Assembly (NCBI GenBank): GCA_020050435.1
Contig: JAGVKQ010000017.1
Coordinates: 186,001 to 250,000, forward strand
Origin: Candidatus Caenarcanales bacterium
GTDB lineage: Bacteria; Cyanobacteriota; Vampirovibrionia; 2-02-FULL-35-15
Length of the DNA: 64,000 nucleotides
Direction of reading: 5' to 3'
Shown here: positions 8,698 to 47,526 of the stretch, piece after piece
Position numbering within the stretch: the first letter of the stretch is position 1
Layout: every line of letters starts with the position of its first letter
Position numbers and translations under genes: made by a program
The notes under the pieces: generated by a model
What the model was told of the DNA's origin: nothing
The model's input: only the letters and a program-made list of their open reading frames with translations
Databases searched by the model: none

Positions 8698-10467
8698 ATG
8701 CTTAGACAGCTTTCAGTAAAAAACTTTGCAATAATTGACGACATAGAAATTAACTTTAAAGAAGGTCTGACTGTTATCACTGGTGAAACAGGTGCAGGTA
8801 AATCTATTATTGCTGATGCTATTGATTTTTTACTCGGTGACAGGGTAAGTACTGACATCATAAAAAGTGGAACAGATAAAGCAATTGTAGAAGGTGTTTT
8901 TGCTATCGTGGGGTCAAGCAATGATTCGATTTTACAAAAGTATCTCGCTGAAAATGGTTTTATGGATGATAACTCAAGTGAGCTTTTTCTAAGCAGGGAA
9001 TTATCACAACAAGGCTCCAAAGTAAGAATAAATGGATCGTTGGGAAATGTTTCTCAGCTAAACAAGCTTAGAGAATATTTAATTGAGGTTCATAAACAAA
9101 GTGAACATATAGAACTAATGAAAAGTGAAAAGCAACTTGAAATTTTAGATAGCTTTGGGGACGATAAACACAAAATTTTACTTAGTGAGTATAAATTAAA
9201 ACATGAACACTATATAAACTTAAAAAAGCGATTTGAGGATTTTATTGAAAATTCAAGTGCTATAAGTAAAAAAGTCACTGACCTTGAATATGAAGTTAAA
9301 GAAATAAAGCAAGCAAAAATAAAAGATACAAATGAAGAAGAAGTACTAGGGGGAAAAAGAGAATTACTCTTAAACAAAAAAGATTTAATTGAAAATACAA
9401 ATCAAATTTATGAACTCATTAACGGTGACGGACAATCTCTTTTAGCTTCAATAAGTCAAATCAAAAAAATCTTACAAAAAAATTCTGAATATGATAAGTC
9501 TTTCGAGCCTTACATAAAAAGTATTGAAAACACTTCTGCAGAAATCAAAGAACTATCTTCTTTTACCAGCAATTACAGCGAATCAATCGATTCAGGTGAA
9601 AACAATCTAGAAGAAATAGAAGAAAGGCTAGATCTCTTTTATAAATTAAAGAAAAAATATGGGAAGAGCCTTGAAGATATTTTAAATTATTTAGAAAAAG
9701 CAGAAAATGAGCTGGAAGAACTAAAAGAAAGCGGCACGTCAAAAGAAAAGATTGAAAATACTTATAAAGAATGTGAGCAAGAGTTAGATAATCTAGGGAG
9801 TAAGATTTCAGACAATAGGGAGAAATTTACAAAGACTTTTGTAGATAAAATAAATGAGGAGTTACAGTCTTTAGGATTCAATTTAGCCGTTTTTATCGTT
9901 CAGTTTACAAAATGTGGTTTAACACCAGTTGGAAAAGAACAAATTCAATTTTTATTTAGTGCAAATCCAGATGAACCTCCTAAACCTCTTTTAAAGGTAG
10001 CTTCTGGTGGAGAACTTTCTAGAATTATGCTGGCTATAAAATCATGCACTTGTAAGGGCATGCCATGGCATGCCCCAACACAAGCCCCAACAGCCCCGAC
10101 AATGATATTTGATGAAATAGATGTAGGTATAAGTGGTGAAGTAGCTTCAACTGTAGCAAAAAAACTTTTTAAGATATCGAGAGGAAATCAAGTTATTTCT
10201 ATTACACATCAACCTATAATTGCAGCGATGGCAGATGAGCATTTATTTGTCCAAAAAGATACAAGCTCTGGAGTTACAAAAATATTTATTCTTGAAGTCA
10301 ATGAATCTAACAAGGCCGATGCAATAGCTCATCTTCTTGTCCCAGAAAAAAAAGTAAAGGATATATCAGAAGATGCAAGATCTTATGCCAAGTCTTTGAT
10401 AGAAAATGCTAAGAAAATCAAAGAAAACATATCAAAAGTATCTTTTTTAGGGCTGCCTACGTCTTAG
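8698..10467 (+). CDS. recN: DNA repair protein RecN
   Basis: RecN is an SMC-like ATPase that acts at DNA double-strand breaks. Residues 29-36 are the Walker A motif GETGAGKS. A long coiled-coil region fills the middle (about 150-380). The C-terminal half of the ATPase carries the signature SGGELSR (about 440), Walker B MIFDEIDVG (about 472) and the ISITHQP segment. Length (589 aa) is slightly above the usual 550-570. The excess includes about nine extra residues between the signature and Walker B, encoded by a 29-base palindrome (10052-10080), in the stretch CTCKGMPWHAPTQAPTAP. The reading frame stays open, so the protein is probably functional if the loop tolerates the insert. Confidence 0.95.
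   Translation: MLRQLSVKNFAIIDDIEINFKEGLTVITGETGAGKSIIADAIDFLLGDRVSTDIIKSGTDKAIVEGVFAIVGSSNDSILQKYLAENGFMDDNSSELFLSRELSQQGSKVRINGSLGNVSQLNKLREYLIEVHKQSEHIELMKSEKQLEILDSFGDDKHKILLSEYKLKHEHYINLKKRFEDFIENSSAISKKVTDLEYEVKEIKQAKIKDTNEEEVLGGKRELLLNKKDLIENTNQIYELINGDGQSLLASISQIKKILQKNSEYDKSFEPYIKSIENTSAEIKELSSFTSNYSESIDSGENNLEEIEERLDLFYKLKKKYGKSLEDILNYLEKAENELEELKESGTSKEKIENTYKECEQELDNLGSKISDNREKFTKTFVDKINEELQSLGFNLAVFIVQFTKCGLTPVGKEQIQFLFSANPDEPPKPLLKVASGGELSRIMLAIKSCTCKGMPWHAPTQAPTAPTMIFDEIDVGISGEVASTVAKKLFKISRGNQVISITHQPIIAAMADEHLFVQKDTSSGVTKIFILEVNESNKADAIAHLLVPEKKVKDISEDARSYAKSLIENAKKIKENISKVSFLGLPTS
10052..10080. repeat. Palindrome inserted in frame in recN
   Basis: GTAAGGGCATGCC and its near-inverse GGCATGCCCCAACA meet at an NcoI-like centre (CCATGG). 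It encodes CKGMPWHAPT between the RecN signature and Walker B motifs. It belongs to the dispersed family described under findings; the flank repeats GCCCCAACA once more directly after it. Confidence 0.8.
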
Positions 10468-10496
10468 AACTTAAGTCAGGGGTAAAATAAAACGAA

Positions 10497-10518
10497 GAGA
10501 CAATTCATGAATTGCCTC
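10497..10518. repeat. Short palindrome before the adk ribosome-binding site
   Basis: GAGACAATTC and GAATTGCCTC flank an ATG centre, with one mismatch. The core CAATTCATGAATTG is the same as in the copy before rplQ (14583). The adk Shine-Dalgarno AAGGAG starts five bases after it. Confidence 0.7.
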
Positions 10519-10532
10519 AAAAAAGGAGAAAA

Positions 10533-11216
10533 ATGGAAAGTCAAAAAAATGTAATCTTTTTCGGTGCTCCTGGAGTAGGCAAAGGAACTCAATCAAAAAA
10601 ACTTTCAGAGGAGTTAGATATTCCACATATTGATACAGGAAGTTTAATTAGAGAAGCCATTACTTCTGAATCTCCACTTGGTATAAAAGCAAAAAGCTTT
10701 GTAGAGGAAGGGAAACTTGTACCAGATGAGCTTGTAATAGATATGATTAGAGAAAAATTGATATTTCAAAAAAATAAAGGCTTTAAAGGCTTTGTTCTTG
10801 ATGGATTTCCTAGAACAATTGGGCAAGCTACAGCTCTTGATAATTTACTTGGGCTTTTAAAATTTAAAATTACTAAAGTTATAAATGTTCAGGCTCCAGA
10901 AGAAATTCTTATTGGTAGACTTAGCTCAAGAAGAACATGCACAAATAAATCCTGTGGAACTATTTATAATGTAATCACGCAAAAACCAGCTAAAGAGGGT
11001 TTATGTGATCATTGTGGATCCCCTTTATATCAAAGAAAAGATGACTCTGTTGAAGCAAGTAAACAAAGATTAGAAGAGTATCACACAAAGACTGCTCCTT
11101 TAGAAAAGTATTATAGAGACAAAAAAATAGTAGCTGATATAGATGGAACAAAATCTCCTGATGAAGTTTTTCAAGATATTATTGAGCTATTAAATTCTCC
11201 GGCTCCAGTAAAATAG
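10533..11216 (+). CDS. adk: Adenylate kinase
   Basis: Adk interconverts ATP plus AMP with two ADP in the cytoplasm. The P-loop GAPGVGKGTQ is near residue 10, the NMP-binding region includes DTGSLIRE, and DGFPRT is near residue 86. The LID domain is of the zinc type: CTNKSCG and CDHCG supply four cysteines (about residues 132-158). An ATG seven codons upstream is in frame, but AAGGAG lies directly before 10533, so this start is better. The gene precedes map, as in the cyanobacterial secY-adk-map-infA neighbourhood, although secY is not adjacent here. The 227-residue length is typical of the long, LID-containing class. Confidence 0.95.
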   Translation: MESQKNVIFFGAPGVGKGTQSKKLSEELDIPHIDTGSLIREAITSESPLGIKAKSFVEEGKLVPDELVIDMIREKLIFQKNKGFKGFVLDGFPRTIGQATALDNLLGLLKFKITKVINVQAPEEILIGRLSSRRTCTNKSCGTIYNVITQKPAKEGLCDHCGSPLYQRKDDSVEASKQRLEEYHTKTAPLEKYYRDKKIVADIDGTKSPDEVFQDIIELLNSPAPVK

Positions 11217-11224
11217 GATTCGAT

Positions 11225-11230
11225 TATAAT
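11225..11230 (+). promoter_or_regulatory. map -10 box
   Basis: TATAAT ends seven bases before the map ATG, inside the short gap after adk. No Shine-Dalgarno sequence is present, consistent with a leaderless internal promoter. Confidence 0.5.
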
Positions 11231-11237
11231 AGTACTG

Positions 11238-12023
11238 ATGTCAATTACTTTATTTCACAAGGACCAATTTGAAGCAATTAAAAAAGCTGGTTTATTAGCT
11301 GGTAAAGCTTTGGATCTTGCTTGCAGAAGTGTAAAAGCTGGAATGAGCACATGGGATTTAGATCAGATTGCTGAAGAGTGGATTAGGTCTCAAGGTGCCA
11401 TACCTACTTTTAAAGGTTACTCTGGATTCCCAGCAAGTTTATGTACATCAGTTAACCAAGAAGTAGTACATGGCATTCCAAATAAAAAAAAGATTTTAAA
11501 AGAAGGCGACATTGTAAGTCTTGATATTGGCGTAACAGTAAAAGAAAAATTTGATGGCACTGAATGGGGATACATAGGAGATACAGCAAGAACAGTTACA
11601 GTCGGAGAGGTAAGCAACTCTGTTAAAAAACTTTTAGAAGACACGGATCTTTCTCTTTATGAAGGAATAAAATGCTGCAAAGCAGGGATGACTATAAAAG
11701 ATATTTCAATCGCTGTTGAGAAAGTAGCAAAAAAAAATAATTATGGAATAGTAAGAATGTTTGGCGGTCATGGAATTGGGCCTAAATATCATTCTGATCC
11801 TTTTATCCCTAATTGGGCCGATTATTTTTCCTTCAATGACAACACAGAAATAAAACCCGGAATGTTACTTTGCATTGAACCAATGTTTAATCTGGGTGGA
11901 GATGATGTAAGAAAATTAAAAGATGACTGGACCATTGTCACTGCAGATCATAAGATGTCTGCACATTTTGAACATACGATTCTAATTACAGAGAATGAGT
12001 CTATCGTCACAACAAAGATATAA
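11238..12023 (+). CDS. map: Methionine aminopeptidase, type I
   Basis: Map removes the initiator methionine from nascent proteins. The metal ligands of the pita-bread fold are all present: Asp in SLDIGV (about residue 95), Asp in GDTARTV (about 113), His in GGHGIG (about 178), Glu in CIEPMF (about 213) and Glu in HFEHTI (about 245). HGIPN (about 78) supplies the substrate-site His. At 261 residues it is a standard bacterial type Ia enzyme without an N-terminal zinc finger. It sits between adk and infA. A TATAAT box seven bases upstream suggests its own leaderless transcript. Confidence 0.95.
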   Translation: MSITLFHKDQFEAIKKAGLLAGKALDLACRSVKAGMSTWDLDQIAEEWIRSQGAIPTFKGYSGFPASLCTSVNQEVVHGIPNKKKILKEGDIVSLDIGVTVKEKFDGTEWGYIGDTARTVTVGEVSNSVKKLLEDTDLSLYEGIKCCKAGMTIKDISIAVEKVAKKNNYGIVRMFGGHGIGPKYHSDPFIPNWADYFSFNDNTEIKPGMLLCIEPMFNLGGDDVRKLKDDWTIVTADHKMSAHFEHTILITENESIVTTKI

Positions 12024-12050
12024 GTAAGTACTTCTATCCTCTGTTTTCAG

Positions 12051-12059
12051 TGTTATAAT
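12051..12059 (+). promoter_or_regulatory. infA extended -10 promoter
   Basis: TGTTATAAT is an extended -10 element (TGn plus TATAAT). It ends seven bases before the GTG start of infA, and there is no Shine-Dalgarno sequence. An extended -10 can function without a good -35 box. Confidence 0.6.
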
Positions 12060-12066
12060 CTTCCTC

Positions 12067-12321
12067 GTGCCTAAAGACGTCATAGAATTTGAAGGTGTAA
12101 TAAAAGAATCATTGCCAAATGCAATGTTTAGGGTAGAGCTTGAAAATGGACATTTGGTATTAGCTCATATATCAGGAAAAATTAGGAAAAACTTTATAAA
12201 AATCCTACCTGGTGATAGAGTTAAAGTTGAACTTACGCCGTATGACTTAAATAGGGGAAGAATTACTTACAGAGTCCAAGAAAAAAGAGGATATACTGTT
12301 CAAGAAGAAGGAAAGAGTTAA
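12067..12321 (+). CDS. infA: Translation initiation factor IF-1
   Basis: IF-1 binds the A site of the 30S subunit during initiation. The OB-fold sequence is clear: [24 protein letters not shown], then [28 protein letters not shown], and GRITYR. The start is GTG; the second codon is Pro, as in other IF-1 proteins that lose the initiator Met. Residues after position 75 ([13 protein letters not shown]) form a short C-terminal extension beyond the usual 72. The gene is followed 14 bases later by rpmJ. It looks like a leaderless gene: an extended -10 box lies seven bases upstream. Confidence 0.95.
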
Positions 12322-12335
12322 GGAGTATTCTGGTC

Positions 12336-12449
12336 ATGAAACATAGAGCTTCAGTTAAAAAAATATGTGCAAAATGCAAAGTAATCAAACGCAAAGGCGT
12401 AATAATGGTTATTTGCGAAAATCCAAAGCATAAGCAAAAACAACATTAA
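12336..12449 (+). CDS. rpmJ: 50S ribosomal protein L36
   Basis: This 37-residue protein was found by translating the infA-rpsM gap. It begins [20 protein letters not shown] and ends NPKHKQKQH. The zinc-binding set is CAKC (residues 11-14), Cys 27 and His 32, so this is the zinc-containing form of L36. AAGGAG lies upstream (12320-12325) with about ten bases to the ATG. The position between infA and rpsM is the conserved one. A strong terminator follows at 12475. Confidence 0.95.
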
Positions 12450-12474
12450 TCGTATTCTTAAATGATATTCGTAC

Positions 12475-12504
12475 AGACGCCACAATGTGGCGTCTTCTCT
12501 ATTT
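12475..12504 (+). terminator. Terminator after rpmJ
   Basis: AGACGCCAC and GTGGCGTCT form a nine-pair GC-rich stem around an AAT loop, followed by TCTCTATTT. It separates the infA-rpmJ unit from rpsM, which has its own promoter. Confidence 0.8.
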
Positions 12505-12592
12505 AGACCTATATTATCTTCAGGATAAATTAGAAATACCAAATTTATATTCTATAAATTTACACCTATACAATTTTTTAATATGAAATACC

Positions 12593-12621
12593 TTGTAGGA
12601 ATTAGATAAAAAAGATAAAAT
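12593..12621 (+). promoter_or_regulatory. Promoter for the rpsM-rpoA operon
   Basis: TTGTAG (12593-12598), 17 bases, TAAAAT (12616-12621). It lies 77 bases before rpsM, giving a real leader, and follows the rpmJ terminator. GAAGGAAAG before the ATG is the ribosome-binding site. Confidence 0.6.
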
Positions 12622-12697
12622 TCTTCCCCTGCACTAATTTTTAACGATAAAATTAGAATGCTTAACAAAAGAAATTTGAAGGAAAGAGTAAAGAAAA

Positions 12698-13081
12698 ATG
12701 GCAAGACTTGCTGGCGTTGATATACCACAAAATAAAAGAGTTGAAATTGCACTTGGTTACATTTACGGAATAGGTAGAGCTGTAAGTAATGTAATTTTAG
12801 AAAAACTTGGAATTGATAAAAACAAAAGAACTAAAGATCTTACTGATGCTGAATTGAATAAGCTCAGAGAGGAAATTGAAAAAAATCATACTGTTGAAGG
12901 TGACTTAAGAAGAGTTGAAGGCCAAAACATAAAAAGATTAGGCGAAATTAATTGCTTAAGAGGAATCAGACATAGAAAAGGTTTACCAACAAGGGGCCAA
13001 AGAACAAAAACAAATGCAAGAACTAGAAGAGGCAGAAGAAAAACCATTGCAGGTAAGAAGATGACTCCAACAACTAAATAG
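12698..13081 (+). CDS. rpsM: 30S ribosomal protein S13
   Basis: S13 is in the head of the 30S subunit and contacts the P-site tRNA and the 50S subunit. The start [20 protein letters not shown] and the C-terminal basic tail with [20 protein letters not shown] are family hallmarks. The length (127 aa) is normal, and the ribosome-binding site is GAAGGAAAG. It is the first gene of the rpsM-rpsK-rpoA-rplQ operon behind its own promoter. Confidence 0.97.
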
Positions 13082-13116
13082 AGATTAATCGGTAAAGAGT
13101 AAAGCAAGAGGACAAG

Positions 13117-13491
13117 ATGAAAGCAAAGAAAAAAGAAAAAAAACATATACCAATTGGAATGGTACATATCAATTCCACGTTTAATAACACCATTGTTACT
13201 GCAACAGACCAACAAGGCAATACAGTTGCATGGTCAAGTGCAGGTGCTTGTGGATATAAAGGAGCTAAAAAAGGAACACCTTTTGCAGCCCAACAAGCAG
13301 CAGAAAGCGTAGCAAGAAAAATTGTTGATGCTGGAATGAAGCATGTAGAAGTAGAAGTAAGTGGACCTGGATCAGGAAGAGAAACAGCAATAAGAGCACT
13401 ACAATCAGCAGGTCTTAGAGTTACAACACTTCGTGACGTAACACCAATTCCTCACAACGGTTGCAGAGCACCTAAAAGAAGAAGAGTATAG
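13117..13491 (+). CDS. rpsK: 30S ribosomal protein S11
   Basis: S11 forms part of the 30S platform near the E site. The sequence contains [41 protein letters not shown] and the C-terminal [18 protein letters not shown], all highly conserved. The length of 124 aa fits. GAGGACAAG is the ribosome-binding site. The next gene is rpoA; rpsD, which sits here in many bacteria such as E. coli, is absent, as in Cyanobacteria. The 76-base gap before rpoA contains an AGAC...GTCT hairpin. Confidence 0.97.
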
Positions 13492-13567
13492 AGACATGCT
13501 GTTGCAGGTCTAACATGGAAGACAGTTAACAACAAAAGTTTTTTAGATTTATACAAGGAGCAAATTA

Positions 13568-14572: not shown

Positions 14573-14582
14573 AGAAAGGATA

Positions 14583-14602
14583 GGCAATTCATGAATTGCC
14601 CC
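14583..14602. repeat. Palindrome before the rplQ ribosome-binding site
   Basis: GGCAATTCATGAATTGCC is a perfect 18-base palindrome with the family right flank CCAACA. It is followed at once by AAAGGATAAGACA and the rplQ ATG, so the element lies in the leader right beside the Shine-Dalgarno site. Confidence 0.85.
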
Positions 14603-14618
14603 AACAAAGGATAAGACA

Positions 14619-14972: not shown

Positions 14973-14975
14973 AGA

Positions 14976-19776: not shown

Positions 19777-20744
19777 TGGAACAAATACAAGAAAATCAGG
19801 AAATAAAAGAAAAGTTAGTAGATATTACTAACTTAAGCAGCGGACTTGAAATTCTTGTTCAACTTGCAGAAAAAGGTGACATCGATCCTTGGGATATAGA
19901 TCTTATCGATGTTACTGATAAGTATCTTGCTGCTCTTGATAAAACCCCTCGTGAAAATCTTTTAAATGCTGGTCGTGCTATTTTTTATTCCAGCGTCTTA
20001 TTGCGGTTAAAGTCTGATATTTTATTAAATATTTCAAATGAAACTCTTTTAAACAGCCAACATAATGAAAACTTCTTTCCTGAAGATGATTTACTTCTTA
20101 ATGAAGAAGGAGTGCCTCTTGATCTAACAAAACTTGAATCATATATTGTGAGAAGTTCTCTTGGCAAACAACAAAGAAAACGCAAAGTAACACTTAATGA
20201 CCTTATTTTTGCTCTTCAACAAGCTGAAGAAGAGGAAGAAAGAAGAGCAATTAGATTAAAGCTTCGCCAAGAGAGAAGATTTACCATTGCAATGCCTGAA
20301 ACACCTGATGATGTTTTAGATATAGCCCAAGATGAAGAAGTAGAAGATATAGCTGAGAAAATAGATGCCATTATCCAAGAACACCTTACAGATGAAAAGC
20401 CCATAACTTACAGTTTTCTACACAATATTGTAGGAAGTAAAGCAAAAACTTTTCTTGCAATTCTCTTTTTAACTCATGCTAAAAAGATAGTTCTTGATCA
20501 AAAAGATTTTTATGAAGAGATTTACATCTACAAAGCTCTTAATATTATAGAAGACAAAGATATTCCATCTAAAGCTAAAGCAAATGAGATCGTTGAGAAA
20601 AAAAGGAATATAGTCCAGAAAGTGAAAGATAAATTGAAAGATCTTAGTAAGGGTTTTGGCAAAGGAAGACCTCAGAAAAATAAAACTATTGAGATAACGA
20701 CTGATGGTGATGAGGTAATTGAGATAAATACAAAGACTGAGTAA
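19776..20744 (+). CDS. scpA: Condensin subunit ScpA (kleisin)
   Basis: ScpA bridges the SMC heads. The N-terminal kleisin signature is visible: LVQLAEKGDIDPWDIDLIDVTDKYL (about residues 27-52), followed by a helix that binds the SMC neck. The middle is acidic, and the C-terminal winged-helix region (FLAILFLTHAKKIVLDQKDFYEEIYIY, about residues 227-255) is recognisable. Length is 322 aa, about 60 more than usual because of a basic tail after residue 260 (KAKANEIVEKKRNIVQKVKDKLKD and a KGRPQKN patch). The start overlaps the smc stop. A palindrome follows before scpB. Confidence 0.92.
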   Translation: MEQIQENQEIKEKLVDITNLSSGLEILVQLAEKGDIDPWDIDLIDVTDKYLAALDKTPRENLLNAGRAIFYSSVLLRLKSDILLNISNETLLNSQHNENFFPEDDLLLNEEGVPLDLTKLESYIVRSSLGKQQRKRKVTLNDLIFALQQAEEEEERRAIRLKLRQERRFTIAMPETPDDVLDIAQDEEVEDIAEKIDAIIQEHLTDEKPITYSFLHNIVGSKAKTFLAILFLTHAKKIVLDQKDFYEEIYIYKALNIIEDKDIPSKAKANEIVEKKRNIVQKVKDKLKDLSKGFGKGRPQKNKTIEITTDGDEVIEINTKTE

Positions 20745-20757
20745 GGGCGAGGGTTTC

Positions 20758-20787
20758 GTAAGGGCAAGTTTGAAACTTGCCCCAACA
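20758..20787. repeat. Palindrome between scpA and scpB
   Basis: GTAAGGGCAAGTTT and AAACTTGCCCCAACA form the dispersed palindrome with the same ends as the recN copy. The scpB ribosome-binding site AGGACAAGAG starts at the last base of the repeat flank. Confidence 0.85.
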
Positions 20788-20800
20788 GGACAAGAGAATT

Positions 20801-21700
20801 ATGGAACAGACAATAGAAAATACAGAAGAAGTCTTAAAAGACGAAAACGAAGTTGAGGATCAAACCTCTAATGAAAACAATGAACAGGTAGAGGCAATCC
20901 ATGCCGCCGAAGGCGAGCCTCGCTCTTTAGAGCGGGAATTGCCTCTACAGGATTCACAACCTGAAAGTACTCAAGAACAAGCTTCTTCAGAAGATGAGAA
21001 TATAGAAACTTCTGAAAATCCTGAAACAGAATTTCCTAGTCCTCAAGAAGAAGAAAGTGACCAACTTGAAATAATCAATACTGATGAATATAGAACAAAA
21101 AAGGAAGACTCTTCATTGCCTAGCATTGCAAGTGCCTTAAAAAATGATTTAAAAGCACAGGTAGAAGCTGTTTTATTTGTATCTGATTCACCTCTTAAAG
21201 CCGGTGCTATTTCAAAGATGCTGAACACTTCATATGAAGATGTACAGTCAGCTCTTGTCAGATTAATTCAAGAATATGAAGATAGAAATGGTGGACTTGA
21301 AATAGGAACTGATGATGGTTATATAATCCAGGTTAAAACTCAGTATTTAAATATAGTTACAGACATGATGCCTCTTGAGTTAAATGCTGGTCCAATGAGA
21401 ACACTTTCAGCAATAGCTCTTAAAGAACCTGTTTTACAATCAGAAGTAATTGATATGAGAGGGTCTGGCGCTTACGATCATATACATGATCTTGTGGAAA
21501 TGGATTTAATTACTAAAAAGCCACAAGGCATGTCATATTTATTAAAAACTACTCAAAAGTTTCAGCAATATTTCAGACTAACTCAAGACGCTAATAAAAT
21601 TAAAGTAAGACTACAAGAAGAAGCTTCTAGAAGAGCTAAAGAAAAAGCCAAGCTAGAAGAAGAAAACAATATGCCTGCTGAAGAAGTAGCACAAATATAA
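20801..21700 (+). CDS. scpB: Condensin subunit ScpB
   Basis: ScpB dimers bind ScpA through two winged-helix domains and regulate the SMC ATPase. The conserved core begins near residue 117 (AQVEAVLFVSDSPLKAGAISKML) and runs to about residue 260 (YLLKTTQKFQQYFRL). The first 110 residues are a very acidic, Gln/Glu-rich extension not found in typical ScpB. Part of it (VEAIHAAEGEPRSLERELPLQ) is encoded by a 61-base inverted repeat. An in-frame start eight codons upstream exists inside the preceding palindrome, but AGGACAAG before 20801 favours this ATG. The C-terminus is also charged. Confidence 0.9.
   Translation: MEQTIENTEEVLKDENEVEDQTSNENNEQVEAIHAAEGEPRSLERELPLQDSQPESTQEQASSEDENIETSENPETEFPSPQEEESDQLEIINTDEYRTKKEDSSLPSIASALKNDLKAQVEAVLFVSDSPLKAGAISKMLNTSYEDVQSALVRLIQEYEDRNGGLEIGTDDGYIIQVKTQYLNIVTDMMPLELNAGPMRTLSAIALKEPVLQSEVIDMRGSGAYDHIHDLVEMDLITKKPQGMSYLLKTTQKFQQYFRLTQDANKIKVRLQEEASRRAKEKAKLEEENNMPAEEVAQI
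20888..20948. repeat. 61-bp inverted repeat inside scpB
   Basis: GTAGAGGCAAT at the left end is the inverse of ATTGCCTCTAC at the right end. Between them is a second GC-rich hairpin region (CCGCCGAAGGCG and GCTCTTTAGAGC). The whole element is in frame and lies in the non-conserved acidic N-terminal part of ScpB. Its GC content is far above that of the surroundings. Confidence 0.8.
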
Positions 21701-34391: not shown

Positions 34392-34468
34392 AAAGCAACT
34401 ACTTTTTCTCCTATTCACGATTAATCATTTTTGCGATATCATATTACCTGGATCCTGTAACAATACAG

Positions 34469-34557
34469 GCTTATCCAGAGTAGCAGAGGGACTGGCCCTG
34501 TGAAGCTACAGCAACCGGGGGAAACCCAAAAGGTGCTAAATCCAGAAAGATGAGCAG
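34469..34557 (+). promoter_or_regulatory. SAM-I riboswitch upstream of metK
   Basis: The S-box consensus is easily read: CTTATCCAGAG at the 5' end, GAGGGACTGGCCC, TGAAGCTACAGCAACC, then AAGGTGCTAAATCC and the closing AGAAAGATGAG pairing with the 5' CTTATC. Binding of S-adenosylmethionine is expected to switch off metK, the gene that makes it. The run of TTATAAAAAGAAAGG downstream places the ribosome-binding site 50 bases away. Confidence 0.93.
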
Positions 34558-35976: not shown

Positions 35977-37698
35977 ATGACTTTTATATTAAGAACTCAT
36001 ATGAATACAAGAATTCCATTAGCACCAAATGGGATTGTTATTGGCAGTGATCCTGCTCAATGTCAAATACAAATGAAAGGAATTGAAGCAACTAGGCAAT
36101 GCAGAATAATTTTAGACGGCAATCTTTCTCCTAGAATTCAAGATTTATCTGGGGCTGAAGCTGATGTTAATGTTAATGGTACCAACCTTAAAGCTTTAGG
36201 CATTTTGAATCTTCAAGCTGGAGATAAGATTTCAGTAGGTGGTAGAACTTTTACTCTTGAAGAAGTAAGTGAAGCAATGTCATTTCCAGAAGCAGGAGGT
36301 TCAAATCTTCCTTTATTTGTAACTTCCATTTCTACTCCTAAAAATCCTGATGGAAGAGATGCTGCCCAACGCATATCTTTAGAAGACTTAGTGAAGTCAA
36401 AACTTTCAGGTGGATTTCCTATAATAATTCAATATCAAAATCCTGATAAACCAGTAAGAAATGCAATATTTTATCTAGATGATTATAATAGAATTACTAT
36501 AGGAAGAGACCCTGAGCATAGTATTACTCTTAAGAGTAAACAAGTTAGTACTTTGCATTGTGAGATTCTATTAATAGATGGGAAATTATATCTTAGAGAT
36601 TTAGCTTCTAGTAATGGCACTAAATTAAATGATGGCGATGAGAGAATTAATAGTGTAGAGATTGTGGGTGATAGCACTGTTAAAGCTGGCAATCAAGAAA
36701 TTCAAATTTTGATTCCAAAATATGAACCATTAGTAGAGCAAGCTCCTGTAAAACTAGCAGAACCACTTCCTGTAGTAAATAATTCAGTAAAGTTTAAAGA
36801 TGAGGCTCCTGGTACTAAAGAATTTTCTATTCAAGAAATTGACAATGATGGAGTAATAGGAGAAAAACATACTTTCTATTTACCCGATAGCTTCCCCGAC
36901 AATAAAGATGGTCTTTTTATTGATAGAAGAGAAGGAAAAATTGTTGTTAGTGACGTTAGAACTGATTCTTCTTGCGAGATACTTAATGCCAGAGGACATC
37001 TATGTATAAATGCTGGATTTTTAAGTATTAAAATTAACGATAAGAAAGTCCAAGGGGGGGAATTAATTAATGGAGATAGAATTCAAATAGGAGAACATGC
37101 TCTTTTTAAATTTACTAAAATAGATTCTGATCAATTAGATAGACCAACGGCAAATGCTCCTGCTAAAGTAGGACATTTTGTATTAGAGGAACCATTAACC
37201 GGTCCTAAAGATTTAGCAGCAGCTGGACCAACAAAAGCAGCAGCAGTTTCACCAGACACATCTGGCGAAACAATTTATAGAATTACTTTAAGTCATAAAA
37301 ATCACAAGAAAGTCTTTGAGATTTCTCAAAATAAATCAATTATTTTTGACAGACAAAGTGCAAAAGAAATGTTTAACCTGGAAGGACATGATCGATACTT
37401 AATGATGTTTAGCAGTAGAGGAAGTTTTGAATTATATATCAATGATAGTGGTGAAACTTCTTTAAGATGTGTTCATAGGGATGGGATTAAAGTAAATGAT
37501 ATTGATCTGCTCAATGGCAAATCAGTTCCATTAAACAATAAAACCATTATAAAGGTGGGTAAAGTGAGCGGCAACATTTATGATTTCACGGTAGGTGTAG
37601 AAAGAATAGATCCTGAAACTCCAGTTAAAAATGCTTCTACACCATCTACCTTCCAAAATCCTTGGTGGAAAAAATGGCCTTGGCAATGGTTTAGTTAG
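35977..37698 (+). CDS. Protein with multiple FHA domains
   Basis: FHA domains bind phosphothreonine peptides. One domain is canonical at about residues 165-235: ITIGRDPEHSI, then STLHCEI and DLASSNGTKLNDG, with Arg, Ser and His in the right places. Three other stretches look FHA-like but lack some binding residues: about 10-98 (IVIGSDPAQCQI...LSGAEADVNVNG), about 300-385 (LFIDRREGKIVVS...INDKKVQGGELINGD) and about 435-545. The C-terminus, WWKKWPWQWFS, is unusually aromatic. No kinase gene is nearby. The 3' end overlaps nadD by eight bases. No Shine-Dalgarno sequence precedes the ATG. Confidence 0.8.
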   Translation: MTFILRTHMNTRIPLAPNGIVIGSDPAQCQIQMKGIEATRQCRIILDGNLSPRIQDLSGAEADVNVNGTNLKALGILNLQAGDKISVGGRTFTLEEVSEAMSFPEAGGSNLPLFVTSISTPKNPDGRDAAQRISLEDLVKSKLSGGFPIIIQYQNPDKPVRNAIFYLDDYNRITIGRDPEHSITLKSKQVSTLHCEILLIDGKLYLRDLASSNGTKLNDGDERINSVEIVGDSTVKAGNQEIQILIPKYEPLVEQAPVKLAEPLPVVNNSVKFKDEAPGTKEFSIQEIDNDGVIGEKHTFYLPDSFPDNKDGLFIDRREGKIVVSDVRTDSSCEILNARGHLCINAGFLSIKINDKKVQGGELINGDRIQIGEHALFKFTKIDSDQLDRPTANAPAKVGHFVLEEPLTGPKDLAAAGPTKAAAVSPDTSGETIYRITLSHKNHKKVFEISQNKSIIFDRQSAKEMFNLEGHDRYLMMFSSRGSFELYINDSGETSLRCVHRDGIKVNDIDLLNGKSVPLNNKTIIKVGKVSGNIYDFTVGVERIDPETPVKNASTPSTFQNPWWKKWPWQWFS

Positions 37699-38317
37699 AT
37701 TTCATCTTTTTTCTAACTTCACTTCCAGAAATATTTATAGGTTTAGTTTTTAGTAAATGATATTTTAGGTTTTTGATTTTGGGGATCCGGTATTCGTGAT
37801 TTTTATTGTTTTTCTTTAAATTCACTTTCGAGATTGCTTTGTCTTTGGGCAGATTGCAATCTGCCCCTACAGCAATGACGTGATGAGGAAGCCTAGGAAA
37901 CACTATAAACTCAATCAATTCAACCAATCTATCTATTTTTTTCCATGTACCTAACTTCTCAAAAGCATCTTGGCCAATGAGGAAATAGGTTGATTGTTCA
38001 TGGTTAATGGTTGATAGTAGAAATTTTACGGTGTCAATTGTATAAGAAGGTCTCTTCTTCTTAATCTCTATATCTAAAGCTTCAAAATGCTTTTTCCCAT
38101 AAATAGCCTTCTTAACTAAGTCATATCGCTTTTTAGCCGGAAGTAAGTCCTTTTTTCTATGTGGGGGATTACCATTAGGGATAAAGTAAATAATGTCTAA
38201 TTTAAACTTCTTCTTAGCTGCTTCAGCCATCTTTAAATGCCCATAATGAATGGGATTAAAGGTCCCACCAAATAACCCTACATTTTTTCTTTTATTTTTT
38301 TGTCTTAAATATGTCAT
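37691..38317 (-). CDS. nadD: Nicotinate-nucleotide adenylyltransferase
   Basis: NadD adenylates nicotinate mononucleotide in NAD synthesis. GGTFNPIHYGHLKMAE (about residue 17) is the nucleotidyltransferase HxGH region, with PPHRKKDLLPA, RPSYTIDTV, IGQDAFEKLGTWKK and the ISGSEVRKKM end motif (ISxTxxR in most). A stretch around residues 149-160 (AVGADCNLPKDK) is encoded by a palindromic repeat in the variable region between the Rossmann core and the C-terminal motif. Without it the protein would be close to 195 aa, the common length. The frame is open, so the enzyme is probably intact. Confidence 0.9.
   Translation of the reverse strand: MTYLRQKNKRKNVGLFGGTFNPIHYGHLKMAEAAKKKFKLDIIYFIPNGNPPHRKKDLLPAKKRYDLVKKAIYGKKHFEALDIEIKKKRPSYTIDTVKFLLSTINHEQSTYFLIGQDAFEKLGTWKKIDRLVELIEFIVFPRLPHHVIAVGADCNLPKDKAISKVNLKKNNKNHEYRIPKIKNLKYHLLKTKPINISGSEVRKKMKSN
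37847..37870. repeat. Palindrome inserted in frame in nadD
   Basis: On the minus strand it reads GTAGGGGCAGATTG then CAATCTGCCC. On the plus strand GGGCAGATTG (37847-) mirrors CAATCTGCCCCTAC. It is preceded on the minus strand by CGTCATTGCT, the start of another repeat type. Encodes VGADCNLP in NadD. Confidence 0.8.
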
Positions 38318-40574: not shown

Positions 40575-40580
40575 AGTTAT

Positions 40581-40586: not shown

Positions 40587-40602
40587 TCGTTCTTTATTAA
40601 GA

Positions 40603-40638
40603 GCATTTGTCTGATTTATTCAGCAAATGCGACCCTAC
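40603..40638. repeat. Decayed palindrome upstream of proA
   Basis: GCATTTGTCTGA and its near-inverse TCAGCAAATGC pair, and one family arm remains at the right end (GACCCTAC, the inverse of GTAGGGTC). It lies 30 bases upstream of proA. Confidence 0.55.
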
Positions 40639-40650
40639 GAAAGGAGAATT

Positions 40651-40678: not shown

Positions 40679-40685
40679 ATACAAA

Positions 40686-42329: not shown

Positions 42330-42873
42330 CTTTTACAAATTGTAATTCCTCATCTGCATAATCTTGAATATTTGTAGCATTTGCCTTTACTTCTGCATTT
42401 GTTAAGCTTGGTATAGCTTCCTTTAAAAGAGCTATTGCATCTGCATAAAGCTTTAAAGCATAAGGACAATTTGGTTGATCTGCACCATCAAGATGATTTC
42501 CACCTTGAGCATATTTAAGATATGCATCTGCAATTTTTTGATAGCTAGCAAGCTCTGGACATTTACAACTTTGAGATTGTGATTTTATTGAAGCAATGGC
42601 ATTTTTCGTAGTAGTCTCTGCATTAGTCCACTCATCTTCTTCTAATGCTGTATATGCTTTATTTAAAGCATCTGCTGCTGGTTTGGCACAAGCACATAGA
42701 TCATCTACTTTTGCTTTAATGACTGCTTCTGGTTTTGCAGGTGCTGCTGCTGCTTTTGGTTTTACTGCAGGAGCTGGTTCTGTTTTTGCTGGGCTTTCTG
42801 CATAAGCACCTGAACATGCTGATATAAACATTGAACTTGAAATTATTATTGCTATTAATCTAGAAAAATGCAT
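42280..42873 (-). CDS. Putative lipoprotein with Cys pairs
   Basis: Unrecognised exported protein. The signal ends in a lipobox, SSSMFISAC (Cys 20), followed by an Ala/Pro/Lys-rich linker (TEPAPAVKPKAAAAPAKPE), suited to spacing a domain away from the membrane. The folded part (residues 50-185) is helical and contains DLCACAKPAAD, SCKCPE, PNCPY and DECED, possibly disulfides. The four-helix outline with alanine-rich helices recalls tetratricopeptide-like packing, but I cannot confirm it. Followed by the glycosyltransferase gene, overlapping 50 bases, so the two may work together in the envelope. Confidence 0.65.
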   Translation of the reverse strand: MHFSRLIAIIISSSMFISACSGAYAESPAKTEPAPAVKPKAAAAPAKPEAVIKAKVDDLCACAKPAADALNKAYTALEEDEWTNAETTTKNAIASIKSQSQSCKCPELASYQKIADAYLKYAQGGNHLDGADQPNCPYALKLYADAIALLKEAIPSLTNAEVKANATNIQDYADEELQFVKDECEDTKPTATPAKKP

Positions 42874-42971
42874 AGATTTACTCCTTCAGACTTTCTCTTA
42901 ACTTTATACCATATAGACGTACTTTTCTGCGGTAATACGAATATAAATCTAATTAGGAGAAATCATAGGAA

Positions 42972-43065
42972 AAAGACTATGGACCATAGGACTATGGAGA
43001 CTATAAAAGCTCCCATCAGTAAAGTGGTCTTATGGTCCTATAGTCTTTATGGTCTTATAGTCTTT
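42972..43065. repeat. Long imperfect inverted repeat made of GACTATAGGACCAT-like words
   Basis: The left arm begins AAAGACTATGGACCATAGG (42972) and the right arm ends TTATGGTCTTATAGTCTTT (43065), inverse to each other with a few mismatches over about 35 bases. The words themselves are repetitive. The final codons of the dehydrogenase gene (ending at 43055) run into the right arm. It may also act as its terminator. Confidence 0.7.
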
Positions 43066-44167
43066 CCTTGCAGTCTGGTTCTATAGCCACTTGCACAACT
43101 TCACCACTTTTCTGCAATAAAAAAGCTTCTTTAAGCTCTGAAAGTTTCATTTTTTTTGTAGTTATCTTTCTCAAAACATTATCTTGAAATTGCTTTTCAC
43201 TTAAAAGCTCAAGAGCTTTTTTTACATATTTAGGCGTATGGTGAAAAACTCCTAGTACTTTTAACTCATCATAATGAAGCCTAAAAGTATCAATTTCTAC
43301 CTTACTACCTTTTTTACATCCACCAAAGAAGTTTACAAGTCCACCTCTAGATACAATTTTTGTAGCCAATTCCCAAATCTCAGGGATACCAACAGCTTCA
43401 ATTACTACATCAGGGCCAAATCCACCAGTTAAATCTTTTGTTTTTTGCATTATATTTTCACTAGAAGTATCTCTGATATTTACTACATGATCAGCTCCAA
43501 GTTCTTTAGCTAATCTCAATTTAGATTCATTTCTTCCAAGAGAAATTATTTTTACACCTTCTCTTTTAGCTAATGCAATAAATAAAAGACCAATTGATCC
43601 TGTTCCAATTATGCAAACAGTTTTACCTTTTTCGATTTCTGATCTATCTAAACCATGCTTAACAACAGCCAAACTCTCTAATATAGCTGCAATTTCAAAA
43701 GGTGTATTCTCCGGGATTTTATGTGTGTTGTTTTCTACTATTTCTTTAGGTACTTTTACATAGTCTGCATAAGCACCATTTAAAAAGAAAATGTTTTCAC
43801 AAAGAGAATATTTTTCAGATTTACAATAAAGGCATTTAAAACAAGGAGAAGAATTTACTGGAATTACTTTATCTCCAATTTTAAACTTTGAAACATTTTT
43901 TCCTACTTTTACAACTATGCCTGAAAATTGATGTCCAAAAAGAGCAGGAGTTTCTTTTATTAAAACAGGATGGCCCCTTAAATATGTTTTTAAATCTGTT
44001 CCACAGGTAAGAACTGATTCTACTTTTACAAGAATTTCATAATCGTTTATTTCTGGGGTTTTAACTTTTTCATATCTAATGTCTTCTGGACCATAAAAGA
44101 GCATGGCATTCATATCTGTTGGAAGGTCAATCAGTGATTCGCTTTGATTTTTTAACTCTTGGACCAT
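43055..44167 (-). CDS. Zinc-dependent alcohol/polyol dehydrogenase (MDR family)
   Basis: Medium-chain dehydrogenase with the catalytic zinc Cys in VLTCGTDLKTYLRGH, GH-Q-FSG (His, about residue 76), the structural zinc set CFKCLYCKSEKYSLC (about 103-117) and the Rossmann motif IIGTGSIGLLF (about 183). It resembles sorbitol/threonine dehydrogenases. The ATG at 44167 is chosen; six extra codons upstream are in frame but would run over the divergent promoter region, which holds TATTAT six bases before this ATG. The last few residues (CKERL) are read from the palindromic repeat. Substrate unknown. Confidence 0.85.
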   Translation of the reverse strand: MVQELKNQSESLIDLPTDMNAMLFYGPEDIRYEKVKTPEINDYEILVKVESVLTCGTDLKTYLRGHPVLIKETPALFGHQFSGIVVKVGKNVSKFKIGDKVIPVNSSPCFKCLYCKSEKYSLCENIFFLNGAYADYVKVPKEIVENNTHKIPENTPFEIAAILESLAVVKHGLDRSEIEKGKTVCIIGTGSIGLLFIALAKREGVKIISLGRNESKLRLAKELGADHVVNIRDTSSENIMQKTKDLTGGFGPDVVIEAVGIPEIWELATKIVSRGGLVNFFGGCKKGSKVEIDTFRLHYDELKVLGVFHHTPKYVKKALELLSEKQFQDNVLRKITTKKMKLSELKEAFLLQKSGEVVQVAIEPDCKERL

Positions 44168-44218
44168 ATCTATATAATACAGCAAGGAGATTTAGTTAAG
44201 ATAGGTTTTATTATTGAA

Positions 44219-44704
44219 ATGGATTTAGTAAAGTTGTTATTAATGTCAACATCAGTTTCATTAAGACCGAATTTTACATCTACTCTTGCTAGAAAAAGGA
44301 AGATAGAATTTGTAACTATTCCACCTCTTGAAACAGTTGCAAAACTTAGCTTTAATGATGGCTTAAAAGTAATTAGAAAAAATATACCTACTGATCACTA
44401 TGGTTTTATAAATTACTCTTGCAGCATGCATGCCCCAGAAGAAAATAAATTTGAGAATAAGATTGAGCTTTTAGTATTTAACGATGGAGAAAATATCTGG
44501 GGCGACTTTTCTGAGAGAAATAGTCCTGAGCCTAATTGGCAGATCTTGCCTGAAAATAAAGATGGATTTTTCATTATTTATCATAAAAGAGATGTTTTTA
44601 GTGGGGAGTTAGAATATATAAATCCTGATTCTACATATTCAGAAGAAATTCTTAGCCCGCTTAAAGCCTTACCATTCACTAGTCTTATTAGGACTACTAA
44701 TTAA
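44219..44704 (+). CDS. Hypothetical protein, 161 aa
   Basis: Unrecognised. A plausible ATG start is at 44219 (MDLVKLLLMSTS...), though an upstream TTG at 44159 is in frame and another ATG lies nine codons on; AAGGAG at 44184 does not point to a start codon at normal distance. The protein is mainly beta-rich, with FINYSCSMHAPEENK and a long polar tail. It is divergent from the dehydrogenase gene and shares a TATATAATA box (44171-44179) readable on both strands. Confidence 0.5.
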   Translation: MDLVKLLLMSTSVSLRPNFTSTLARKRKIEFVTIPPLETVAKLSFNDGLKVIRKNIPTDHYGFINYSCSMHAPEENKFENKIELLVFNDGENIWGDFSERNSPEPNWQILPENKDGFFIIYHKRDVFSGELEYINPDSTYSEEILSPLKALPFTSLIRTTN

Positions 44705-44770
44705 CCACTTTAAACTCTTTCATTTTTTATACTAAGGAACTAAAGAGATCAACTATCTCGCTAAAATAGT

Positions 44771-45505
44771 TCATAGTTCAAGTTGTGGTAATAATGCCTC
44801 TACATCAGTTCGTGTTATATCTGGTTTTGTTTCTGCTAATTTAATAAAGTCCTCTGTGAAAAAGTCTACATGACGCCAGCCTTTTTCTCTATAATAAGGG
44901 GTCGCTGCATTTTTATAAAGTGTCCATTGCTTTTCATTTAGCTTTGCTAATTCACTAAAACCCAGTGTTAATTTGTTTATATGACGGCAATCTGCTTGTA
45001 TAAAATAAGGCACTATACCTGCATAAAGTATCCATCGCTTTTCATCTGGCTTTGCTTTTACTAATTCACTAAAGCTATTTGTTAATTCATCTATCCACCA
45101 GCCTTTTGTTTTATAATAAGCCACTGCATCTGTATAAACTTCCCGTTGCTTTTCATCTGGCTTTGCTTTTACTAATTCACTAAAGCTACTTGTTAATTCA
45201 TTTATACCAAAGCCTTTTGTTTTATAATAAGCCACTGCATCTGTATAAATTTCCCATTGCTTTTCATCTGGTTTTGCTTTTACTAATTCACTAAAGCTAC
45301 TTGTTAATTCATCTACATCCTGCCAGCCTTTTGTTTTATAATAAGTCACTGCATCTGTATAAACTTTTAATTGGTTTTCTGGAAGAGCCCGACCTGTCAT
45401 TTTTTTTAACTGGGCTATTTCATCACTAAATGGATCTCTTTGTTGTACTGCTACTGAAACACCTTTTATTCTTGGTGCATTTGTTGCTGATCCTACTGCT
45501 GACAT
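44771..45505 (-). CDS. Tandem-repeat protein (about 37-residue units)
   Basis: Five consecutive units of about 37 residues fill residues about 43-235. The strongest three share YTDAVAYYKTKGW and DELTSSFSELVKAKPDEKQ with only a few changes; units four and five are more divergent (YAGIVPYFIQ, YKNAATPYYREKGW). The units should fold as helical pairs, like a TPR-type solenoid that binds another protein, but I cannot name the family. The repeats are also close at the DNA level. AAAGGAG is a good ribosome-binding site. No signal peptide is visible. Confidence 0.75.
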   Translation of the reverse strand: MSAVGSATNAPRIKGVSVAVQQRDPFSDEIAQLKKMTGRALPENQLKVYTDAVTYYKTKGWQDVDELTSSFSELVKAKPDEKQWEIYTDAVAYYKTKGFGINELTSSFSELVKAKPDEKQREVYTDAVAYYKTKGWWIDELTNSFSELVKAKPDEKRWILYAGIVPYFIQADCRHINKLTLGFSELAKLNEKQWTLYKNAATPYYREKGWRHVDFFTEDFIKLAETKPDITRTDVEALLPQLEL

Positions 45506-45609
45506 AATATTCTCCTTTATAAAACTTATCTTTATAAGGTACCTAATTCTTTTATATTTTTCAAGGTTAAATACTTAATCAAAGATAAAATTTCTCTAAT
45601 AAGACATTA

Positions 45610-45939
45610 TTAAGATTCGCCGACCCTAAACTCTTTTAATTTCAGATGAAATTCTTTTGTATGCCCCCAAGGTCTTTTATTTACATAGAGCCAGAAGTGA
45701 ACCATTTCATGGTAAAGAGTAAGTGCTATTTGTTTAGGATGATCACAAAGGGTTCTTGAAAGCCTTATGTGAGGACGCTTCCCAGGCATAGCTGTAAAGT
45801 CACCAAATTGTTTAAAATACTTTCCATTTCCAAAGCTATCACACCAAAGAATTCGTACATAAGGCAATTTACCATCAAAGTATTGCTTATTTAATTTATC
45901 GAAGATTTCATAGATTTGTTCGTCTTGTATCGTTGGCAT
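45610..45939 (-). CDS. SprT-like zinc metallopeptidase domain
   Basis: The HExxH zinc motif is clear: LTLYHEMVHFWLYVNKRPWGHTKEFHLKL, with His, Glu, His and a third His (in GHTKEF). The N-terminal half has the SprT-like NKQYFDGKLPYVRILWCD. At 109 residues it is shorter than E. coli SprT (about 165), because the C-terminal zinc-finger region is missing, so it is a minimal domain like the SprT-like family in which DNA-protein crosslink proteases such as Spartan are found. Divergent from the radical SAM gene, 18 bases apart. Confidence 0.8.
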   Translation of the reverse strand: MPTIQDEQIYEIFDKLNKQYFDGKLPYVRILWCDSFGNGKYFKQFGDFTAMPGKRPHIRLSRTLCDHPKQIALTLYHEMVHFWLYVNKRPWGHTKEFHLKLKEFRVGES

Positions 45940-45957
45940 ATAACGTACAATTATTGC

Positions 45958-47526
45958 ATGAATCTATTCTCTGAAGAAAAAATATTAACTTCTTTTCCAC
46001 ATAAAAAATCAGATGCTTTGGAATTAGCAATATGTTTTCCAAATACATATATGGTGGGCATGGCAAGCCTGGGATATCAAACAGCATGGAAGCTTTTAAA
46101 TCAAAATGAAAATGTAAAAACCACCAGATGGTTTACGGATATTCAAGAACCCCGTAGGGGCGGAGCGTGCTCCGCCCTCCCCCCAGCATACATCGGTTTC
46201 TCATTTAGTTGGGAATTAGATTATAAAAACATTTTTAAAATTTTAGAAGAAAATAAAATATCAATTTTTTCAAGCGAAAGATCAGAAGATGATCCTTTAG
46301 TTTTTGCAGGGGGTCAAATACCAAATGCAAATCCAGAACCATTCTGTGATAATTTTGATTTCTTTTTAACTGGGGATTTAGAAGTAGTGGCTGAACCTTT
46401 TATAAATAAGATTGTTGAGATTAAAGATTTAAATAGAACGAAAAAATTAGAAGAATTGGCAAAAGTTCCAGGAATTTATGTGCCCACCCGTAGGGGCTTG
46501 TTGCAACAAGCCCCTACAACGCCAATTAAAATAAATCGGGTATATGCAAAAGAAAACCTTTCTTCCTCTTGCATCCTCACTCCAAATTCATATTGGCCTG
46601 ATACTTTTATCATAGAGGTGGCTAGAAGCTGTCCTGAATTATGTCGCTTTTGTTTAGCCAGTTACGGCTCTCTACCATTTAGAACACCTGATATAAAAAA
46701 CTCTCTAATCCCAATCATAGAAAGTGGTTTAAAACATACAAATAAACTTGGGCTTTTAGGGGCATCAGTTACACAGCATCCAGGATTTGATGAACTATTA
46801 GATTATTTACTTCAAAAGAAAATTACATCTCCTGATCTCCAGGTTCAAATTGCATCAGTTCGTGCAGATACTATTTCTAAAAAATTAGCAGAGGGATTAC
46901 ACAAATTAGGAAGTAAGTCTCTAACCATGGCTATTGAAACTGGCTCAGATAGACTTAGAGAAATTATAAATAAAAAAGTTTCTAGAGAAACTATACTAAA
47001 TTCCATTCAAACTATTTATGACTCTGGGTTTAACTCAATAAAGCTTTATGGCATGGCAGGGATCCCACAAGAAACAGATGATGATTTAAATGAAACCATT
47101 AAACTCTTAAAAGAAATTAAAGCAAAAAATAAAGGAAAAAAACTAACGTGGGGATGTTCGACATTTGTGCCAAAAGCTCAAACCCCTTTCCAATACTATG
47201 GAATGGATAAAAGTGCAGAAAAGAAATTAAAACTTCTTTCTAAAGAATTACATAAAGCAGGAATTGAGTTTAAACCTGAAAGCTATGAATGGTCCATTAT
47301 TCAAGGTTTAATTTCAAGAGGAGATAGAAGCATTAATAAAATACTTGTAGATGCATACAGGTATGGATCCACCATAGGTAGCTTTAAAAAAGCAATGAGA
47401 GAAAATAAAGATATAGACAGTGAGTATTTTATCTATAAAAACTGGGATATAAATACAAAATTGCCATGGGAAAATGTACAAGGGTTTTTAAATAGAGAGA
47501 TTATTAAAGAGCACGCTACGTTATAA
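45958..47526 (+). CDS. Radical SAM protein with two palindrome insertions
   Basis: The B12-binding-like N-terminal part (ICFPNTYMVGMASLGYQTAWKLLN) is followed by the radical SAM core with RSCPELCRFCLASYG (CxxxCxxC for the 4Fe-4S cluster, about residue 225), GLLGASVTQHPGF, TMAIETGSDRLREIINK and KLYGMAGIPQETDDD. It belongs to the uncharacterised B12-binding/radical SAM proteins related to YgiQ-type methylthiolases or to TIGR03960-like families. Two in-frame palindromes add EPRRGGACSALPP (residues about 62-75) and TRRGLLQQAPTTP (about 177-190). The ATG at 45958 is preferred over a TTG 42 bases earlier. Confidence 0.8.
   Translation: MNLFSEEKILTSFPHKKSDALELAICFPNTYMVGMASLGYQTAWKLLNQNENVKTTRWFTDIQEPRRGGACSALPPAYIGFSFSWELDYKNIFKILEENKISIFSSERSEDDPLVFAGGQIPNANPEPFCDNFDFFLTGDLEVVAEPFINKIVEIKDLNRTKKLEELAKVPGIYVPTRRGLLQQAPTTPIKINRVYAKENLSSSCILTPNSYWPDTFIIEVARSCPELCRFCLASYGSLPFRTPDIKNSLIPIIESGLKHTNKLGLLGASVTQHPGFDELLDYLLQKKITSPDLQVQIASVRADTISKKLAEGLHKLGSKSLTMAIETGSDRLREIINKKVSRETILNSIQTIYDSGFNSIKLYGMAGIPQETDDDLNETIKLLKEIKAKNKGKKLTWGCSTFVPKAQTPFQYYGMDKSAEKKLKLLSKELHKAGIEFKPESYEWSIIQGLISRGDRSINKILVDAYRYGSTIGSFKKAMRENKDIDSEYFIYKNWDINTKLPWENVQGFLNREIIKEHATL
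46154..46184. repeat. Palindrome inserted in frame, first copy
   Basis: GTAGGGGCGGAGCG and TGCTCCGCCC pair across a GCGTGC centre; right flank is C-rich (TCCCCCC). Encodes RRGGACSALPP in the radical SAM protein, outside recognised motifs. Confidence 0.8.
46490..46517. repeat. Palindrome inserted in frame, second copy
   Basis: GTAGGGGCTTGTTG is followed directly by its exact inverse CAACAAGCCCCTAC: a perfect 28-base palindrome, the cleanest example in the window. Encodes RRGLLQQAPT. Confidence 0.9.

Follow-up and report, generated by a model that had tools for sequence, protein, structure and literature searches.

Repetitive extragenic palindromes (REPs) are named as extragenic sequences. The GTAG REP superfamily consists of dispersed palindromes of 20-40 bp with a GTAG foot, and some of its members lie in open reading frames (ORFs); intragenic copies are known from Opitutus terrae, Thauera, Xanthomonas and others, often in repair genes, and a recB site is common to two Xanthomonas species (PMC3733652). 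Elements of the form GT[AG]G...C[TC]AC are called “double foot”, and REPs inside the gene of the REP-associated tyrosine transposase (RAYT, or TnpA-REP) have been reported for tnpA-REP subclass 2.4, which is found in many phyla and is abundant in Cyanobacteria and Bacteroidetes (PMC6006769). Binding and cleavage of the hairpin by RAYT have been shown biochemically for other REPs (PMC8266576). Here, we analyzed a 64-kb stretch of a Candidatus Caenarcanales bacterium (the window, G000:C4:186001-250000, where G000 is its own 2.49-Mb draft genome). The short palindromes dispersed in the window are double-foot GTAG REPs. Taken as a whole, the observations are very probably explained by RAYT-spread elements of this class that are mostly intragenic and occupy loops that have been reused or kept.

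GTAG REPs as such are known already, and so are REPs in genes and in RAYT frames (PMC3733652, PMC6006769), the last of which were rejected as a novelty because they have been reported (PMC6006769). As far as the searched literature shows, two things are new: the mainly intragenic distribution in this bacterial family, and the repeated occupation of loops of housekeeping proteins by palindromes with differing, covarying arms. The element class is known; less expected is its return to the same loops. Where a lineage has the majority of its copies in conserved genes and shares their positions among genera, it offers a natural record of insertion-tolerant protein loops. Such a lineage also allows a test of what keeps REP arms complementary, be it selection for mobilization, function or templating of one arm on the other.

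Element class, copy number and RAYT genes

The elements are 27-29 bp long, and the left foot of the clear copies is GTAG or GTAA. The layout, of about 28 bp, is GTAG-[RGRC]-variable arm-short loop-complementary arm-[GYCY]-CTAC, with GTAAGGGC..GCCCCAAC variants in which the second foot is imperfect. Sister types of the same architecture, GTAGAGAC..GTCTCTAC and GAAGGCGAGG..CCTCGCCTTC, were found in a 438-kb sample of G000. With regard to miniature inverted-repeat transposable elements, the entire element is a palindrome, and no constant target-site duplication was seen, the empty sites being too diverged for one to be recognized. REPINs, which are RAYT-associated inverted REP doublets (PMC3116915), are similar, and a few RAYT genes of the family hold doublets (L011, L018); however, the window copies are mostly single hairpins. 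The class is settled, and the original prediction of one dispersed, REP-like palindrome family with common ends and variable centers, located in and between genes, was correct.

In the window, six GC-rich palindromes (stem score ≥9, G+C ≥45%) were observed, compared with an average of 0.13 per simulation (15 runs of a first-order Markov model); these are the copies in recN, before scpB, in nadD, the two in the radical-SAM gene and the one at 12471-12495. Genome-wide statistics come from pattern searches of all 11 genomes of the family (G000 to G010) and from about 1.04 Mb of sampled stretches. The pattern GTAGRGRM-N8-16-KYCYCTAC has 282 matches in the 11 genomes, whereas the reversed control yields about 4, with at most one in any genome. 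The matches are unevenly distributed: 81 in G007, 67 in G009, 63 in G006, 19 in G005, 17 in G003, 13 in G000, 10 in G001, 7 in G010, 4 in G002, 1 in G004 and 0 in G008. A second pattern, GTARGGGC-N4-34-GCCCCWAC, was found in 9 of 21 relatives and its reversed control in none, and GGGC-N-GCCCC occurs 27 times in G000, compared with 7 for the reversed pattern. The elements are therefore dispersed and multicopy; a scarcity of further copies, named in the original prediction as grounds for doubt, was not encountered, and the search brought up sister types as well.

The arms were compared in 58 listed elements of 28 bp, in which the search pattern dictates pairs 1-4 and 6. Variation is seen at pairs 5, 7, 9 and 11-14, which are nevertheless Watson-Crick in 86-97% of elements (pair 10, 82%), whereas shuffling the right-hand letters among elements gave 30-52%. 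Where elements differ at one pair, both sides had changed in 19 cases and one side in 7. This covariation of stem pairs indicates that the sequence of the arms is free and their pairing constrained, in agreement with the requirement of other TnpA-REP proteins, to varying degrees, for the GTAG motif and a folded hairpin (PMC8266576).

A RAYT gene, proposed as a check on the REP interpretation, is present in G000 in several versions, for which a cognate role is putative. NCBIfam REP_Tyr_transpos detected about five RAYT-like loci (contigs C5, C14, C19 and two on C27), and a PF01797 profile search detected one gene. The C5 ORF (121.7 kb) scores 83.8-84.1 bits, above the NCBIfam cutoff of 80; the ORFs on C14, C19 and C27 score below it, in part because a palindrome splits them. 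All four of the RAYT-like genes examined in G000 carry a REP palindrome within their own frame. Across the family, 20 RAYT loci were examined and 13 have such a palindrome, usually paired at 13-14 bases; the 1.5-kb flanks of these loci hold few. Where aligned, the internal palindromes lie between the HuH and Tyr halves. The arrangement extends to RAYT homologues of many phyla: the HuH-Tyr loop contains a palindrome at 21 of the 63 loci that could be scored, and codon shuffles predict 0.9. Both features, the in-frame palindromes between the HuH and Tyr motifs and the paired feet GT[AG]G and C[TC]AC, are those of tnpA-REP subclass 2.4 (PMC6006769). The seven genomes with RAYT matches contain 7-81 palindromes, and the four without contain 0, 1, 4 and 17.

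RAYT proteins of other phyla (L143, L130, L160) contain long tandem REP-derived peptides, e.g., repeated GAHTE or GCPTPR, which suggests repeated insertion or expansion in one loop. A GTAAGGGC..GCCCCAAC REP is located at L061:2437-2464, in a short ORF directly 3′ of the C5 RAYT; by eye, this ORF bears a likeness to a DNA alkyltransferase-like protein.

The Rickettsia palindromic elements RPE-4 and RPE-6, which belong to the CGTC superfamily, are also in-frame palindromes in conserved proteins. That the present elements are of this type is very improbable: CGTC-like repeats do exist in the same bacterial family (in nadD and scpB), but separately from the elements described here, whose feet are GTAG or GTAA and which occur inside RAYT genes, whereas CGTC repeats have no link to RAYT and no dedicated transposase (PMC3733652).

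Copies inside and between genes

Of the REP-like palindromes in the sampled stretches, which come from five genomes, 43 of 75 (57%) lie within ORFs of at least 120 aa, called mechanically and covering 85-94% of the sequence; in G007, the figure is 19 of 25 (76%). The sampled copies are thus not mainly extragenic, as the name would have it, although this property is not essential to the class. The distribution differs from that in the GTAG REP survey, where the elements are mostly intergenic (PMC3733652). It differs also from that of tnpA-REP subclass 2.4, to which the elements are likened by their features: housekeeping genes hold the majority of the sampled copies, and the loops of several genes have palindromes in more than one genus. 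That one family lies both in and between genes was observed as predicted; it is, however, not unprecedented (PMC3733652).

Pfam confirmed the hosts RecN, ScpB, NadD and the radical-SAM protein in the window, and in G007 MqnC/CofH-like and MiaB-like proteins, aspartate-semialdehyde dehydrogenase (asd), ArgS, Fmt and a menaquinone-biosynthesis protein. The copy in recN recalls the frequent occurrence of intragenic GTAG REPs in repair genes (PMC3733652). The five intragenic window copies are in frame and free of stop codons, as first described. Placeable tags use the two phases that avoid the TAG stop (20 and 16 cases), the sole exception being a misplaced tag. The structure predicted for the radical-SAM protein places its two inserts between secondary-structure elements, in segments with a predicted local distance difference test score (pLDDT) of <50 that are predicted to be unstructured loops. 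The inserted residues, whose presence in distant orthologues would have spoken against insertion, are lacking in the RecN of D. radiodurans (PDB match), which has 11 residues fewer at the recN REP site.

Three window copies are indeed located just before Shine-Dalgarno sites, and the original prediction held that they could tune translation. This would fit hairpins selected by the host as functional RNA regulators, acting on translation pausing, mRNA stability or ribosome-binding sites, as would the covariation of the arms and the presumable transcription of the hairpins in operons. However, among 31 intergenic copies in the sample, no more than 11 are within 30 nt of a start codon, and intergenic gaps are mostly short anyway, so that neither tuning nor a special link to ribosome-binding sites is supported. 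The position relative to genes is not kept either, the rpoA-rplQ gap having no such palindrome in nine relatives, and copy number varies from 0 to 81 within one family. A function at the ribosome-binding site was rejected on the distribution of intergenic copies and the orthologous gaps, and a known RNA family was rejected because Rfam gave no match at the palindrome sites; host-selected RNA regulation is unlikely. The copy at 40603, described as lying before proA, adjoins a Shine-Dalgarno-like sequence on the plus strand that is not that of proA, since this gene is on the minus strand.

Loops occupied in related genera

At 17 sites, a palindrome (stem score ≥9) was found in 9 of 66 orthologous windows, compared with 10 of 2,622 control windows taken from the same genes; this ratio of about 36-fold is somewhat inflated, above all for rsmG, because some loci were chosen for containing a REP. 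At six sites, arms of the same species pair at 10.7 of 14 positions, and arms taken across species pair at 6.4 of 14. The original prediction was incomplete in this respect, since it did not foresee that related genera would have similar palindromes at a number of these sites.

In recN, REP-like sequence, palindromic or decaying, starts 7 nt past a conserved serine codon in G000, G001, G003, G005, G007 and G010 and 10 nt past it in G009; none was found at the site in G002 and G004. At site 2 of the radical-SAM gene, G000, G003 and G007 have a copy at an identical codon position, G005, G009 and G010 have a decayed one, and G001, G002, G004 and G008 have none. Palindromes also occur in ffh of G001 and G010, at two sites in rsmG of G006 and G009, and in a DUF4127 gene of G007 and G010; the names ffh and rsmG in relatives derive from aligned residues and neighborhood. 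Loop 1 of nadD has the GTAG type in G003, G007 and G009 and a CGTC-like type in G001, G005 and G010.

In-frame CGTC-like repeats GTCATTGCGAGGAGTGAAGCGACGAAGCAATCT are present in nadD of G010, G001 and G005 (L109, L110, L103) and in scpB of G010 and G005 (L092, L094), so that two REP superfamilies share coding loops. In nadD of the window (37847-37880, coding strand), the REP abuts CGTCATTGC, as though a GTAG REP had inserted beside or into a CGTC REP.

The shared sites could stem from single ancient insertions inherited vertically, the arms having changed pair by pair while a function of the hairpin in DNA or RNA kept them complementary. The identical 7-nt distance in six recN genes and the constant codon phase at radical-SAM site 2 point in this direction, and short recN loops in several genera speak against repeated clean insertion. 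Moreover, the radical-SAM copies of G003 and G007 have GTAGGGAA in common and differ mainly by compensated transitions, and among the listed G007 copies this type is found only at that gene. On the other hand, the GTAG and CGTC types of nadD loop 1 require separate insertions; congeneric species differ, with a copy at radical-SAM site 2 in G003 and none in G008; decay is seen in many copies at shared sites (recN in G007, G008 and G010), which argues against strong constraint; and the tree has several unresolved deep nodes. We regard this account as possible but rather doubtful. Vertical descent alone is contradicted by the two superfamilies in nadD loop 1, and independent clean insertions alone are contradicted by the short recN loops. 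A mixture fits best: the precise register of the copies in recN and in the radical-SAM gene, with the short recN loops, favors old insertions kept in place, and the two superfamilies in nadD loop 1, with presence and absence within genus g4, favor reinsertion into permissive loops, including replacement of one REP by another.

We favor selfish mobile hairpins that flexible loops can accommodate and that, with time, are reused or rewritten. RAYT transposases would copy the elements as single-stranded hairpins, guided less by the stem sequence than by the GTAG foot and the hairpin. A copy would persist only if the net change preserves the reading frame, if its GTAG is read in a phase that gives no TAG stop, and if the encoded peptide, about 9 residues long, is housed in a flexible loop. 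Placement in frame is observed, and placement in a loop is predicted for one protein, the radical-SAM protein. Few loops being tolerant, the same ones would serve again or stay occupied for long periods, with replacement or rewriting of the palindrome at a given site, so that genera would have sites in common but different arms. Covariation may arise from selection for a mobilizable hairpin, which would have to fold at mobilization, or from arm-to-arm correction, in which one arm would template the repair of the other, or from both. Effects on host expression would be incidental.

Several points weigh against this reading. Mobilization by the transposase is probable and was not observed; G003 lacks a RAYT match yet has 17 palindromes; in G000, the RAYT with the highest score holds a GAAGGCGAGG-type palindrome, not the GTAAGGGC type common in that genome; and the residues gained at filled sites are not a constant 10, which implies that insertion was not clean or that deletions followed. 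More tentatively, the REPs may now be mainly intragenic passengers in a limited set of reused loops of essential proteins, where GTAG and CGTC types replace each other and both arms are rewritten together in situ, either by correction templated on the hairpin or by exchange of one REP for another. If this is true, mobile hairpins slowly redesign the loops of core proteins.

Inventory of the window

Direct reading of the window confirmed the palindrome sequences of the original prediction at their coordinates (Table 1). Of the nine or more copies counted there, those in recN, before scpB, in nadD and at both radical-SAM sites are clear, and the one inside scpB is nested. Those before adk and rplQ are decayed, their feet having degenerated so that the inner palindrome CAATTCATGAATTG alone remains, and the copy near proA is weak. 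The possible tenth copy, in the ffh tail, shows no excess over chance. An extra partial left end lies at 20741, near the REP before scpB.

Table 1 Features of the window and RAYT-like genes of G000
Feature	Position	Strand	Sequence	Basis or remark
recN, host gene	8698..10467	+		Pfam SMC_N; PDB RecN match
GTAG-type REP in recN, loop before Walker B	10052..10079	+	GTAAGGGCATGCCATGGCATGCCCCAAC	Direct reading; encodes CKGMPWHAP
Partial right-end repeats behind recN REP	10080..10101	+	GCCCCAACA, GCCCCGACA	Direct reading
Decayed REP before adk	10497..10518	+	GAGACAATTCATGAATTGCCTC	Direct reading
Intergenic REP, sister type	12471..12495	+	GTACAGACGCCACAATGTGGCGTCT	Palindrome scan; overlooked in the original prediction
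Decayed REP between rpoA and rplQ	14583..14600	+		Direct reading
REP before scpB	20758..20786	+	GTAAGGGCAAGTTTGAAACTTGCCCCAAC	Direct reading
scpB, host gene	20777..21700	+		Pfam SMC_ScpB; real start probably ATG at 20801
Nested palindrome, scpB N-terminal acidic region	20888..20948	+	arms GTAGAGGCAAT/ATTGCCTCTAC enclosing GAAGGCGAG-type palindrome	
nadD, host gene	37691..38317	-		Pfam CTP_transf_like
REP in nadD	37847..37870	-	GTAGGGGCAGATTGCAATCTGCCC (coding strand)	Direct reading
End of CGTC-type repeat adjoining nadD REP	37872..37880	-	CGTCATTGC	Direct reading
Weak or decayed copy upstream of proA	40603..40639	-	GTAGGGTC tag, then imperfect hairpin	Direct reading
Radical-SAM gene, host	45916..47526	+		Pfam Radical_SAM_N2 and Radical_SAM; probable start 45958
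REP in radical-SAM gene, site 1	46154..46177	+	GTAGGGGCGGAGCGTGCTCCGCCC	Direct reading; right foot decayed
Perfect double-foot REP in radical-SAM gene, site 2	46490..46517	+	GTAGGGGCTTGTTGCAACAAGCCCCTAC	Direct reading
Short palindrome, ffh tail	48943..48958	+	GGGCTTCAAGCCC	Probably chance
RAYT-like gene, contig C5	L061:1705-2295		GAAGGCGAGGGCACGTGCCCTCGCCTTC	Internal palindrome
RAYT-like gene, contig C14	L062:18533-19135		GTAGGGGTAGAACAATGTTCTACCCCTAC	Internal palindrome

The only Rfam match, away from the palindromes, is a SAM riboswitch (RF00162, 75.2 bits) at positions 34468-34556 of the window.

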